This document shows positions 12,332-29,372 of a stretch of 64,000 nt of DNA, one piece after another. The stretch is from Acidobacteriaceae bacterium (GTDB lineage: Bacteria > Acidobacteriota > Terriglobia > Terriglobales > Acidobacteriaceae). Under the pieces are notes generated by a model that was not told the origin of the DNA, ran no database searches, and worked only from the letters and a program-made list of their open reading frames with translations. A program made the position numbers and the translations under genes. The first letter of the stretch is position 1; every line of letters starts with the position of its first letter. Location: assembly GCA_025355505.1 (NCBI GenBank), contig JANXZM010000017.1, positions 62,001 to 126,000 of the forward strand, given 5' to 3'.

Positions 12332-13354
12332 TTAGGCGCGGACGGAACCAAGCACAGGACGCAAAGGCTCGCTCAATCCCCGCATCACGCGCTCGAACTG
12401 CGGGATGTCAAGCGACTGCGGCCCGTCGGAAAGTGCGCGCTCCGGACAGGGATGCACCTCGATGATGATGGCGTCGGCTCCGACCGCAATCGCAGCACGC
12501 GAAACCGCGCCGATCAGGCTCTGCTTGCCGGTGCCATGGGACGGATCGGCCACTACCGGCAGGTGCGAGAGTTCTTTGGCGAGGGCGACGGCGGCAAGGT
12601 CAAATGTGTTGCGAGTGCCGGTTTCGAACGTTTTGATTCCGCGCTCACAAAGGGCCACCTGTTCGTTCCCGCCGGAAAGCAGGTATTCCGCTGCCAGCAG
12701 CCACTCTCTCACCGTGGCCGAGGGGCCACGCTTGAGCAGAATCGGTTTCTTTACGGTCGCCAGCCTCCGTAGCAACGCAAAGTTCTGCATGTTGCGCGCG
12801 CCCACCTGGAGCATATCGGCGTACTCGCAGATCAGGTCCACGTCTTCCGTGCTCATGACCTCGGTGACGACCGGGAGGCCAGTGAGTTCGCGAGCTTCGC
12901 GCAGAATCTTCAGTGCCTCAATTCCCAGGCCTTGGAACTCGTAAGGCGAGGTTCGCGGTTTGTAGGCTCCGCCGCGCAGCATGGTAGCGCCGGCGCGTTT
13001 CACCCCTTGCGCGGTCTCCAGCAATTGCTCGCGCGACTCCACCGAGCAGGGACCGGCAATCACAACCACTTCGGGGCCGCCGATCTTTACGCCCCGAACG
13101 TCAACCACCGTCGGCTGCGGCCGCGTCTGACGGCTGACGAGCTTAAAGGGTTGGGCGATCGCGACCACGTTATCCACCCCGGGCGCAACCGAAAGCGCCT
13201 CGATTTCATGGCGACGCCCACCGCTGCCGACCGCCGCAACGATGGTGCGCTCGGTGCCGCGGGTGACGTGAGGCTGGAATCCGGCTTCACGGATGCGTTG
13301 AACGATGTGGTCAATCTCTTGTTCGGTAGCGCTGTCAGACATGTTGACAATCAT
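12332..13354 (-). CDS. aroF: 3-deoxy-7-phosphoheptulonate (DAHP) synthase, type I-beta with N-terminal regulatory domain
   Basis: A 340-residue enzyme that condenses phosphoenolpyruvate and erythrose 4-phosphate, the first step of the shikimate pathway. Residues 1-70 form a ferredoxin-like domain of the kind that mediates tyrosine/phenylalanine feedback in the Thermotoga enzyme. The barrel shows [48 protein letters not shown] and [12 protein letters not shown], covering the metal- and substrate-binding residues. I chose the ATG at 13354 (AAAGG upstream); an upstream in-frame codon at 13387 overlaps the attenuator hairpin. Its leader holds an aromatic-rich peptide and a terminator, so expression is probably controlled by attenuation. 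Confidence 0.9.
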
Positions 13355-13380: not shown

Positions 13381-13409
13381 AAAACAAAAGCCGCGATTTT
13401 ATCGCGGCT
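13381..13409 (-). terminator. terminator hairpin in the aroF leader (candidate attenuator)
   Basis: Perfect nine-base stem AGCCGCGAT/ATCGCGGCT with a three-base loop (13389-13409), followed on the minus strand by TTTGTTTTT. It ends only about 25 bases before the aroF start and lies just after the leader peptide ORF. It could also be the terminator of the pilin gene at 13587-13754; the two ideas are compatible. Confidence 0.75.
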
Positions 13410-13432
13410 TTGGCGGAATCCTTGAGCTGTCT

Positions 13433-13525
13433 CTATTGCCTGGGCGACTGGCTCTGATTCTGCACCTCCGCCGGGAATGGAAACCAATAGCGGCCGAACT
13501 GGCGGAAGCTGCAAAATCGTGTCAT
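13433..13525 (-). CDS. putative aromatic leader peptide of aroF
   Basis: A 30-codon ORF (ATG at 13525, TAG at 13433-13435) upstream of the DAHP synthase gene. Its first 18 residues, MTRFCSFRQFGRYWFPFP, contain five Phe, one Tyr and one Trp. A terminator hairpin begins 23 bases after its stop. Codon-rich leader peptides followed by a terminator are the hallmark of ribosome-mediated attenuation (pheL, trpL). CTTCCGCC inside the aromatic codons (13501-13508) and TTCCGCC before the hairpin (13412-13418) can both pair with GGCGGAGG (13465-13472). The ribosome binding site is weak, which lowers confidence. Confidence 0.6.
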   Translation of the reverse strand: MTRFCSFRQFGRYWFPFPAEVQNQSQSPRQ

Positions 13526-13586
13526 AGAGATGTTGAGCCCGTAACCGTTAAAATTTCGACGCCTTCTAAAACTGGTGAAACAGAAA

Positions 13587-13754
13587 TTACTGCGCCATGC
13601 TACTGGCAACACCGGAGAACACGTTGTTGGCGTTGCCCCCGATCAGACGCACAGTGCCGATCACCAATACCAAAATGACAGCGAGCATGACAGCATATTC
13701 AGCAATATCCTGTCCTTGTTCGTCCGTCCAAACATTGCGGAAAAAGTGAACCAT
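13587..13754 (-). CDS. Flp-family type IVb pilin
   Basis: A 55-residue prepilin. It has the Flp cleavage pattern: a short leader ending at G14, then QDIAE-Y with glutamate at +5 and tyrosine at +6, followed by a hydrophobic helix (AVMLAVILVLVIGTVRLIGG). GGAGGATCT precedes the ATG. Flp pilins are processed by a TadV/TadA-system peptidase and polymerise into adhesive fibres. No tad assembly genes are in the window, so this is an orphan copy here. A good promoter lies 50-80 bases upstream and the next terminator is the hairpin in the aroF leader, so transcripts may run into that leader. Confidence 0.85.
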   Translation of the reverse strand: MVHFFRNVWTDEQGQDIAEYAVMLAVILVLVIGTVRLIGGNANNVFSGVASSMAQ

Positions 13755-13802: not shown

Positions 13803-13831
13803 ATAATGCCGACTTACGCGCCGATTGTCAA
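13803..13831 (-). promoter_or_regulatory. candidate sigma-70 promoter of the Flp pilin gene
   Basis: On the minus strand TTGACA (13831-13826), a 17-base spacer and CATTAT (13808-13803). The -35 is a perfect consensus match and the -10 matches four of six positions. Transcription would start about 40 bases before the pilin ATG. Confidence 0.5.
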
Positions 13832-29246: not shown

Positions 29247-29372
29247 CTTCCCTATTGTTTCGAACTACTATTCACTCGAACTGACGTTTAAACTTAACGC
29301 ACGATCCGTCTGAGCGCCGCCGCTTCGTCCCGACCGGGGCTCCACGTCAAGTTCCAGGCAGGAGGAATTTGC

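Follow-up and report, generated by a model that had tools for sequence, protein, structure and literature searches.

Transcription attenuators such as trpL and pheL of Escherichia coli contain four leader RNA segments: the control codons lie in segment 1, segments 3 and 4 form the terminator, and segments 2 and 3 form the antiterminator. The element described here shares this four-segment logic. It lies in Acidobacteria, upstream of a gene for 3-deoxy-7-phosphoheptulonate (DAHP) synthase. Unlike trpL and pheL, a single homologous acidobacterial element serves aroF, aroK, trpBA and chorismate mutase/pheA, and at most family loci outside the window genus and genus g7 the start codon is near the predicted transcript start. 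The window is the whole 64-kb stretch of DNA that was analysed, and the window genus is the genus of its organism.

Leader-peptide control has been described for a DAHP synthase gene of Corynebacterium glutamicum. The leader peptide AroR, with its Phe-Tyr-Phe sequence, precedes the DAHP synthase gene aroF (PMC11802643, PMC4046766). The first of these, which also names the E. coli trpL and pheL attenuators, reports, on the basis of Neshat et al. (2014), that transcription of the operon is increased under Phe limitation and that Tyr supply is irrelevant (PMC11802643). AroR resembles the acidobacterial element in that a leader peptide containing aromatic codons comes ahead of a DAHP synthase gene (PMC11802643), but C. 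glutamicum belongs to another phylum and the peptide is different; the likeness is of logic only. The uORFC-13-1 motif of Acholeplasma is similar as well, consisting of a predicted upstream ORF with one or more Phe codons and a terminator stem with aroF downstream. It differs in that, according to its source, it comes from Acholeplasma and environmental sequences only, with 24 representatives that are found exclusively before aroF (PMC8632094). From the same phylum as our element, a catalogue of predicted premature terminators that resemble attenuators has been published, almost none of them with an associated function; in its main text the terms aroF, aroG, aroK, trpB, pheA and shikimate are absent (PMC2965389).

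The original prediction on this DNA had proposed a candidate attenuator and knew of none described for aroF in Acidobacteria. Our literature search agrees with the latter statement, as no attenuator of aromatic genes in Acidobacteria was found among the matches listed, which covered open-licence papers. A 2010 study by Lopatovskaya et al., cited in PMC4833913, may contain predictions. On the basis of the comparisons below, we consider it very likely that the element acts as a ribosome-mediated transcription attenuator, sensing charged tRNA-Phe, tRNA-Tyr and tRNA-Trp and gating transcription into the DAHP synthase gene.

An aromatic-rich leader ORF and an intrinsic terminator precede aroF

The order on the minus strand is pilin gene, leader ORF, hairpin and DAHP synthase gene (Table 1). 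Profile matches (NF006421, 476 bits; TIGR01361, 388 bits; PF00793; PF18152) identify the product of the last gene as a DAHP synthase, as had been proposed, and show a ferredoxin-like domain at its N terminus. Direct reading confirmed a 30-codon ORF whose peptide begins with MTRFCSFRQFGRYWFPF and carries five Phe, one Tyr and one Trp within 14 residues (FCSFRQFGRYWFPF). The expected terminator hairpin was also present with its 11 pairs, but it begins 21 bases past the leader stop codon rather than 23. The end of its T-rich tail is 25 bases from the aroF ATG, in line with the original estimate, and the hairpin itself is 32 bases from this ATG. The leader ORF is short and rich in codons for the product amino acids, an intrinsic terminator lies between it and the structural gene, and this gene serves the synthesis of the amino acids that would be sensed.

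Table 1. Coordinates of the aroF leader region within the window
Feature	Position	Strand	Details
Predicted sigma-70-type promoter before the pilin gene	13803..13831	minus	TTGACA (13831-13826), 17 nt, CATTAT (13808-13803)
Small Flp/Fap-like pilin gene	13587..13754	minus	55 aa; PF04964, E 0.0015, below the Pfam cut-off
Leader peptide ORF	13433..13525	minus	30 codons plus stop; ATG 13525-13523, TAG 13435-13433; direct reading MTRFCSFRQFGRYWFPFPAEVQNQSQSPRQ
Aromatic control codons of the leader ORF			F4 F7 F10 Y13 W14 F15 F17
Segment 1	13490..13518	minus	GATTTTGCAGCTTCCGCC (13518-13501) plus inner GCCGC (13494-13490); within the control-codon region
Segment 2	13445..13474	minus	CCGGCGGAGGTGCAGAATCAGAGCCAGTCG; partner of segment 1 or segment 3
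Segment 3	13401..13432	minus	AGACAGCTCAAGGATTCCGCC (13432-13412) plus terminator 5' arm (13411-13401); antiterminator partner
Intrinsic terminator hairpin (3:4)	13387..13411	minus	11 pairs; AAAGCCGCGAT-AAA-ATCGCGGCTTT (arm-loop-arm); T-rich tail to 13380
aroF-type gene, DAHP synthase	12332..13354	minus	340 aa; profile matches

The window was scanned for chance occurrences of such ORFs. Among 2394 start-to-stop readings of 10-50 codons, with nested starts counted, two ORFs contained at least seven aromatic residues in 14, and only the aroF leader was followed by a terminator within 70 nt. The other short ORF is at 29369 on the plus strand, and no terminator was found near it.

On the 3' side of aroF, at 12270-12240 on the minus strand, inspection by eye revealed a GC-rich inverted repeat and, next to it, a T run. 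aroF is therefore probably the last gene of its transcription unit. No leader of this kind was seen at two further DAHP synthase genes of the window's genome, one of which is preceded by only 60 nt before the contig end.

The leader is conserved in related genomes

A search with the leader DNA returned a whole or partial match in 19 of the 23 other genomes of the window genus, whereas none of the 37 genomes from outside the genus gave a match. Orthologues of the DAHP synthase (E <=1e-130) were present in 39 of the 150 family genomes searched. According to our tally, the leader was upstream of the DAHP synthase gene on the same contig in 30 of these 39 genomes, and in six others it headed a chorismate mutase or pheA operon upstream of that gene. 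The remaining three comprised two genomes in which the locus was cut by contig ends (G088 and G132) and one without the leader (G083, L056). A second family, f7, also carries the leader.

Subsequent comparisons were carried out with 51 leaders from these two families, in which the ORF, its aromatic codons and the terminator are kept, as the original prediction required of related genomes. The set consists of 18 close genus rows, one divergent genus row (L024), 26 other family leaders and six from f7. Left out were L012, whose leader is partly masked, loci that duplicate others of the same genome, three loci cut by contig ends (L068, L071 and L074), and loci at which the DAHP synthase gene has no adjacent leader (L056, L061, L065-L067, L070, L072 and L083). 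In several genomes of these leaderless or excluded loci, the element sits at the head of a longer operon.

Aromatic residues make up 32.5% of the first 20 codons of the 51 leaders in frame, compared to 4.9% and 10% in the other two frames. Phe was present in all 51 leaders, Tyr in 45 and Trp in 41. Our codon table of the genus contains 17 rows, L020 being omitted; Phe4, Phe10 and Phe15 are invariant, Tyr13 is present in 13 rows and Trp14 in 14, and positions 5, 6, 8, 9 and 16 drift. Variability at the three codon positions was 0.179, 0.250 and 0.228 for codons 2-17, and 0.131, 0.297 and 0.220 for codons 2-10. As an excess at the third position is not clear from these values, the case for coding constraint is built on the aromatic positions that are conserved and on the contrast between frames.

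Several leaders have unusual features. The leader of L063 is truncated by a TGA at the position of its relatives' Trp codon (MHTKRFSSAFEYRY), with the hairpins kept; this is either an assembly error or a natural variant. L041 and L055 contain about 130 and 290 nt, respectively, of extra and partly repeat-like sequence between the terminator and aroF.

Leader RNA is predicted to form mutually exclusive structures

The four classical segments were identified in the leader RNA: covariation is seen in helices 1:2 and 3:4, and the leaders retain a long 2:3 antiterminator. The control codons overlap with segment 1, whose pairing partner is segment 2, and the 2:3 antiterminator makes use of the 5' arm of the terminator. 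The original prediction had noted three copies of a pairing motif, at 13501-13508, 13465-13472 and 13412-13418, and had suggested that they allow alternative structures. All three are at these positions and the pairings are real, as CTTCCGCC:GGCGGAGG is part of helix 1:2, and GGCGGAG and TTCCGCC fall in stretches that pair as helix 2:3.

The window leader folds with a z-score of -3.45, and none of 200 shuffled sequences was equally stable. RNAalifold analysis of the 18 genus leaders yielded helices 1:2 and 3:4 with little covariation because these rows are similar. In the 33 leaders other than these 18 rows, helices 1:2 and 3:4 contained 45 cells with two-sided changes compared to a mean of 19.1 after shuffling (0 of 500 shuffles reached 45); plain shuffles ignore relatedness, and slid controls, which keep it, gave 4 to 17 such cells. 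Pairing was found in 88.5% of the cells of these helices, compared to 36-52% when the helices were slid. One example of two-sided change is CCGCTACT/AGTAGCGG versus CCGCTTCCC/GGGAAGCGG.

The antiterminator was examined in the same way. Its core GCGG:CCGC pairs are kept in 33, 33, 33 and 32 of the 33 rows, and ten two-sided cells, in its outer pairs, were counted in these rows compared to 4.2 after shuffling (0/500). Counted by pairs, two 2:3 pairs showed two-sided change versus 1.2 after shuffling (152/500), and one tested pair forms in just 16 of the 33 rows. Within the 18 genus rows, 89.1% of the cells of the long 2:3 helix are formed, compared to 23-45% when slid; covariation inside the genus is weak (four two-sided cells versus 2.7 after shuffling, 126/500; score 59/500).

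Energy tests were performed with 48 leaders, as the terminators of L075, L076 and L078 were not recognised by our script. The mean energy of the cognate 2:3 duplex was -30.7 kcal/mol, compared to -23.6 kcal/mol for non-cognate duplexes (18 rows against the rest). When the part of segment 3 ahead of the terminator arm was shuffled, at most 5% of the shuffles did as well as the natural duplex in 38 of the 48 leaders (1% for the window leader), and more than 5% did so in the other ten.

The window's own species has a weakened antiterminator core, in which CCGGC replaces GCGGC. For RNA extending from segment 2 to the terminator end, the antiterminator of the window leader has an energy of -24.8 kcal/mol versus -33.9 kcal/mol for the best fold. 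Over the 48 leaders this gap ranges from 0 to 13.8 kcal/mol, a quantity that is never negative by construction. Window leader RNA that was folded freely from nt 52 retains the terminator; the presence of the terminator in the best fold was examined for this leader alone. Given the weaker antiterminator, the switch in the window species, if functional, would depend on which helices form first while the RNA is being transcribed.

A pilin gene and its predicted promoter lie upstream of the leader in the window genus

The small pilin gene is upstream of the leader at 18 of 18 genus loci and at all four loci of genus g7, and the TTGACA-17-CATTAT promoter precedes it at 18 of 18 genus loci. This promoter probably drives a transcription unit that contains the pilin gene, the leader and aroF. 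No pilin homologue was detected upstream at 25 of the 51 loci, although the upstream sequence is short at some of these (for example L046, L064 and L069).

Sequences upstream of the leader were scored against a sigma-70-like consensus only (shuffle background mean 5.8, 95% 8.0, 99% 9.0). Outside the 18 genus rows and g7, a TTGACA/TATAAT-like pair with a score of at least 8.5 is present within 45 nt upstream of 27 of 29 leaders, L024 and L050 being the exceptions. The -10 box of this pair ends 29-43 nt before the leader ATG in f7 and 8-22 nt before it in family loci, indicating that the predicted transcripts of the latter start close to the start codon. None of the four g7 loci reaches a score of 8. 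At L042-L045 both the pilin gene and the leader promoter are present, as expected of an intermediate. Inspection of the 18 genus rows by eye revealed no Shine-Dalgarno-like sequence before the leader ATG. We infer that the leader promoter was lost after the pilin gene had arrived upstream, and that the leader of the window genus is probably without a promoter of its own.

An unlikely, though by no means negligible, alternative is that attenuation operates as proposed while the leader of the window genus has its own weak or unusual promoter and is not co-transcribed with the pilin gene. The 32-74 nt between the pilin stop codon and the leader ATG (18 genus rows) could accommodate such a promoter, our scoring was limited to the sigma-70-like consensus, and one genus locus (L013) does score 8.5. 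However, this gap is unconserved, with a mean identity of 0.26 over the 18 genus rows compared to 0.73 for the leader and 0.52 for the 5' flank of the pilin gene. Moreover, the other 17 genus loci score below 8, near the shuffle background, whereas the pilin promoter is kept at all 18 and nearly all leaders outside the genus rows and g7 have a high-scoring promoter.

Homologous elements precede several kinds of aromatic genes

A covariance model, R1, was built from the same 33 DAHP synthase leaders, none of which belongs to the 18 genus rows. R1 recovered the window leader at E 2.7e-11. At E <=0.001 it matched 67 of the 150 family genomes, with no match under strict filters in the other 83, and at E <=1e-5 it matched 87 of the 299 genomes searched from the class, the matches falling in families f1, f5, f7 and f12.

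Downstream genes were read at 40 family loci, which include no model members and were chosen mostly from matches outside known aroF leaders, and at 22 loci of the class search, six of which are model members. Strong matches outside this reading include G098:C153, G088:C6 and many second-search ones of g47 and g50. Gene names were assigned by tblastn against one reference each. Fifty-three of the 56 non-model matches precede aroF, aroK, trpBA or chorismate mutase/pheA genes. The 40 family loci comprise 37 with aromatic genes: trpB, mostly with trpA (10), aroK (11), aroF (6), chorismate mutase-pheA or pheA (6), and chorismate mutase with or without aroF (4). Two weak matches, L230 (E 6.6e-5) and L262 (E 1.4e-4), have no aromatic gene downstream, and at L261 (E 8.4e-7) the contig ends 125 nt on, before any aromatic gene is reached. 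All 16 non-model loci of the class search precede aromatic genes (L280 as judged by eye), and the six model members precede aroF. Taken from these comparisons, the homologous copies ahead of aroK, trpBA and chorismate mutase/pheA would form an aromatic attenuation regulon in related genomes.

The codon content of the leaders follows the branch of the pathway. Trp codons are present in 29 of 29 leaders of trpBA, aroK or aroF, compared to 3 of 24 leaders of chorismate mutase/pheA. By gene, Trp occurs in the first 24 residues of 10/10 trpBA, 13/13 aroK and 6/6 aroF leaders, versus 2/15 chorismate mutase-pheA or pheA leaders and 1/9 chorismate mutase leaders; Phe and Tyr are present in 53/53 of these non-model leaders. 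Fisher's test gave a p of 6e-12, which overstates the certainty as the rows are related. The peptide used for each locus was the most aromatic short ORF according to our script, a choice that favours aromatic content in general. Since chorismate mutase and PheA serve the synthesis of Phe and Tyr but not Trp, the near-absence of Trp codons before their genes is as tRNA sensing predicts.

The window's own genome was also searched with R1. Six matches were obtained up to E 5, of which only the window leader is strong; the next (E 0.016) corresponds to the hairpin of this leader on the opposite strand. No leader was seen in this genome upstream of trpE (by eye), pheA or trpB. A short ORF ending in FVRYFY is present before trpA, with no terminator nearby on that strand.

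Proposed mechanism

From folding and sequence comparison, we propose that in an untranslated leader segments 1 and 2 would pair, the 3:4 terminator would form and transcription would halt. A ribosome stalled at the aromatic codons, from F4 to W14, would mask segment 1. Segment 2 would then be free to pair with segment 3, including the 5' arm of the terminator, and transcription would read through into aroF. When aromatic tRNAs are charged, the ribosome would reach the stop codon at 13433 and cover part of segment 2, and the terminator would form. Conservation of the pilin promoter suggests that in the window genus the element is an internal gate of a pilin-leader-aroF unit transcribed from that promoter; in aromatic plenty the transcript would presumably end as pilin mRNA.

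Our broader interpretation, which we favour with some confidence, is that the dispersed homologous attenuators constitute an aromatic regulon in at least four families of one class of Acidobacteriota, with codons fitting the branch, and that the window-genus copy has lost its promoter and gates a pilin-aroF unit, such that transcripts starting at the pilin promoter and reading through the gate would supply the first step of aromatic synthesis. The candidate attenuator of the original prediction is thus upheld as to the element and, on comparative grounds, its likely mechanism; what it had missed was the pilin gene, the probable promoter loss and the wider set to which the element belongs.

Other means of controlling the terminator were considered. 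TnaC exemplifies arrest peptides, in which the nascent chain together with a free amino acid stalls the ribosome. It is very unlikely that the aroF leader responds in this manner to a free aromatic amino acid instead of uncharged tRNA. The motif F-T-Y-R-[YF] does recur in many leaders, but its Arg codon is part of segment 1, and its conservation can thus be accounted for by RNA pairing. In addition, the peptides differ strongly between genera, flanking residues drift, and a response in which excess induces biosynthetic genes would run in the wrong direction.

Control of the terminator by a metabolite- or tRNA-binding RNA (a riboswitch or T-box) or by an RNA-binding protein, with the ORF being incidental, is exceedingly improbable. 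Alternative helices alone would suit an RNA-binding ligand too. Against this, a search of the window and ten loci with this or similar leaders, one of them from the window's own genome, identified no T-box or other curated Rfam family at gathering score except tRNAs. The confinement of aromatic residues to one frame and the tracking of Trp codons with the branch of the regulated genes likewise argue against an incidental ORF.

It is scarcely credible that the hairpin does no more than terminate pilin transcription, with a chance ORF and an aroF gene that has its own promoter. The pilin gene is directly upstream in the genus, and the hairpin would end its transcript. However, the hairpin is just 32 bases from the aroF ATG, and leader and terminator persist at the 25 of 51 loci without a detected pilin homologue (some with short upstream sequence). 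Conservation also extends to the aromatic codons and the alternative helix, and copies of the element stand before other aromatic genes.

Ribosome-mediated attenuation remains our preferred reading of the aroF leader. Counting against it are the lack of a visible Shine-Dalgarno-like sequence in the window genus, the weakened antiterminator core of the window species, the weak 2:3 covariation, the two leaderless DAHP synthase genes of the window's genome and the family genomes without an R1 match. Attenuators of this kind are already known. What is new is the phylum, and the set of homologous copies found ahead of different kinds of aromatic genes, with codon content to match. The apparent pilin gate of the window genus, as read from the sequence, is also new. 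For predicted attenuators of Acidobacteria, almost none of which are stated to have an associated function (PMC2965389), the element offers a concrete one, together with an RNA model that can be used in searches and natural variants whose codon content matches the branch. Leader-peptide control of DAHP synthase would thereby extend to a phylum that is abundant in soil. The element is also an example of a regulatory gate that has apparently been placed under the control of a neighbouring, unrelated gene's promoter.

Candidate leaders before DAHP synthase genes in other bacteria

A simple script, used with no background control, found a short aromatic-rich ORF and a terminator before the DAHP synthase gene at 12 of the 80 listed named-genome loci (L134, L139, L140, L145, L149, L154, L159, L167, L168, L172, L176 and L193). 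The record titles of these loci name Desulfuromusa, Syntrophaceae, Deltaproteobacteria, Chloroflexi, Verrucomicrobia, Sulfopaludibacter, Rokuibacteriota, Calditrichota, Gemmatimonadetes and Nocardiopsis. Leader control of DAHP synthase may be common in bacteria. Few close relatives were among the named-genome matches listed; Candidatus Acidiferrum typicum (L117) has the leader, though it was missed by this script.

In other families of the class, aromatic-rich short ORFs and terminator-like hairpins were seen before more distant DAHP synthases (L085, L086, L087, L093 and L113), and their sequences look different from the R1 element. At L112 (G033), a leader-like ORF with Trp-Trp (MTVKPTQRQWWCPDKHSGPCA) is located 141 nt before the gene for a DAHP synthase paralogue, flanked by a promoter-like sequence on its 5' side and a terminator-like hairpin on its 3' side, as judged by eye. 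Its sequence points to a possible attenuator of a Trp-specific DAHP synthase.
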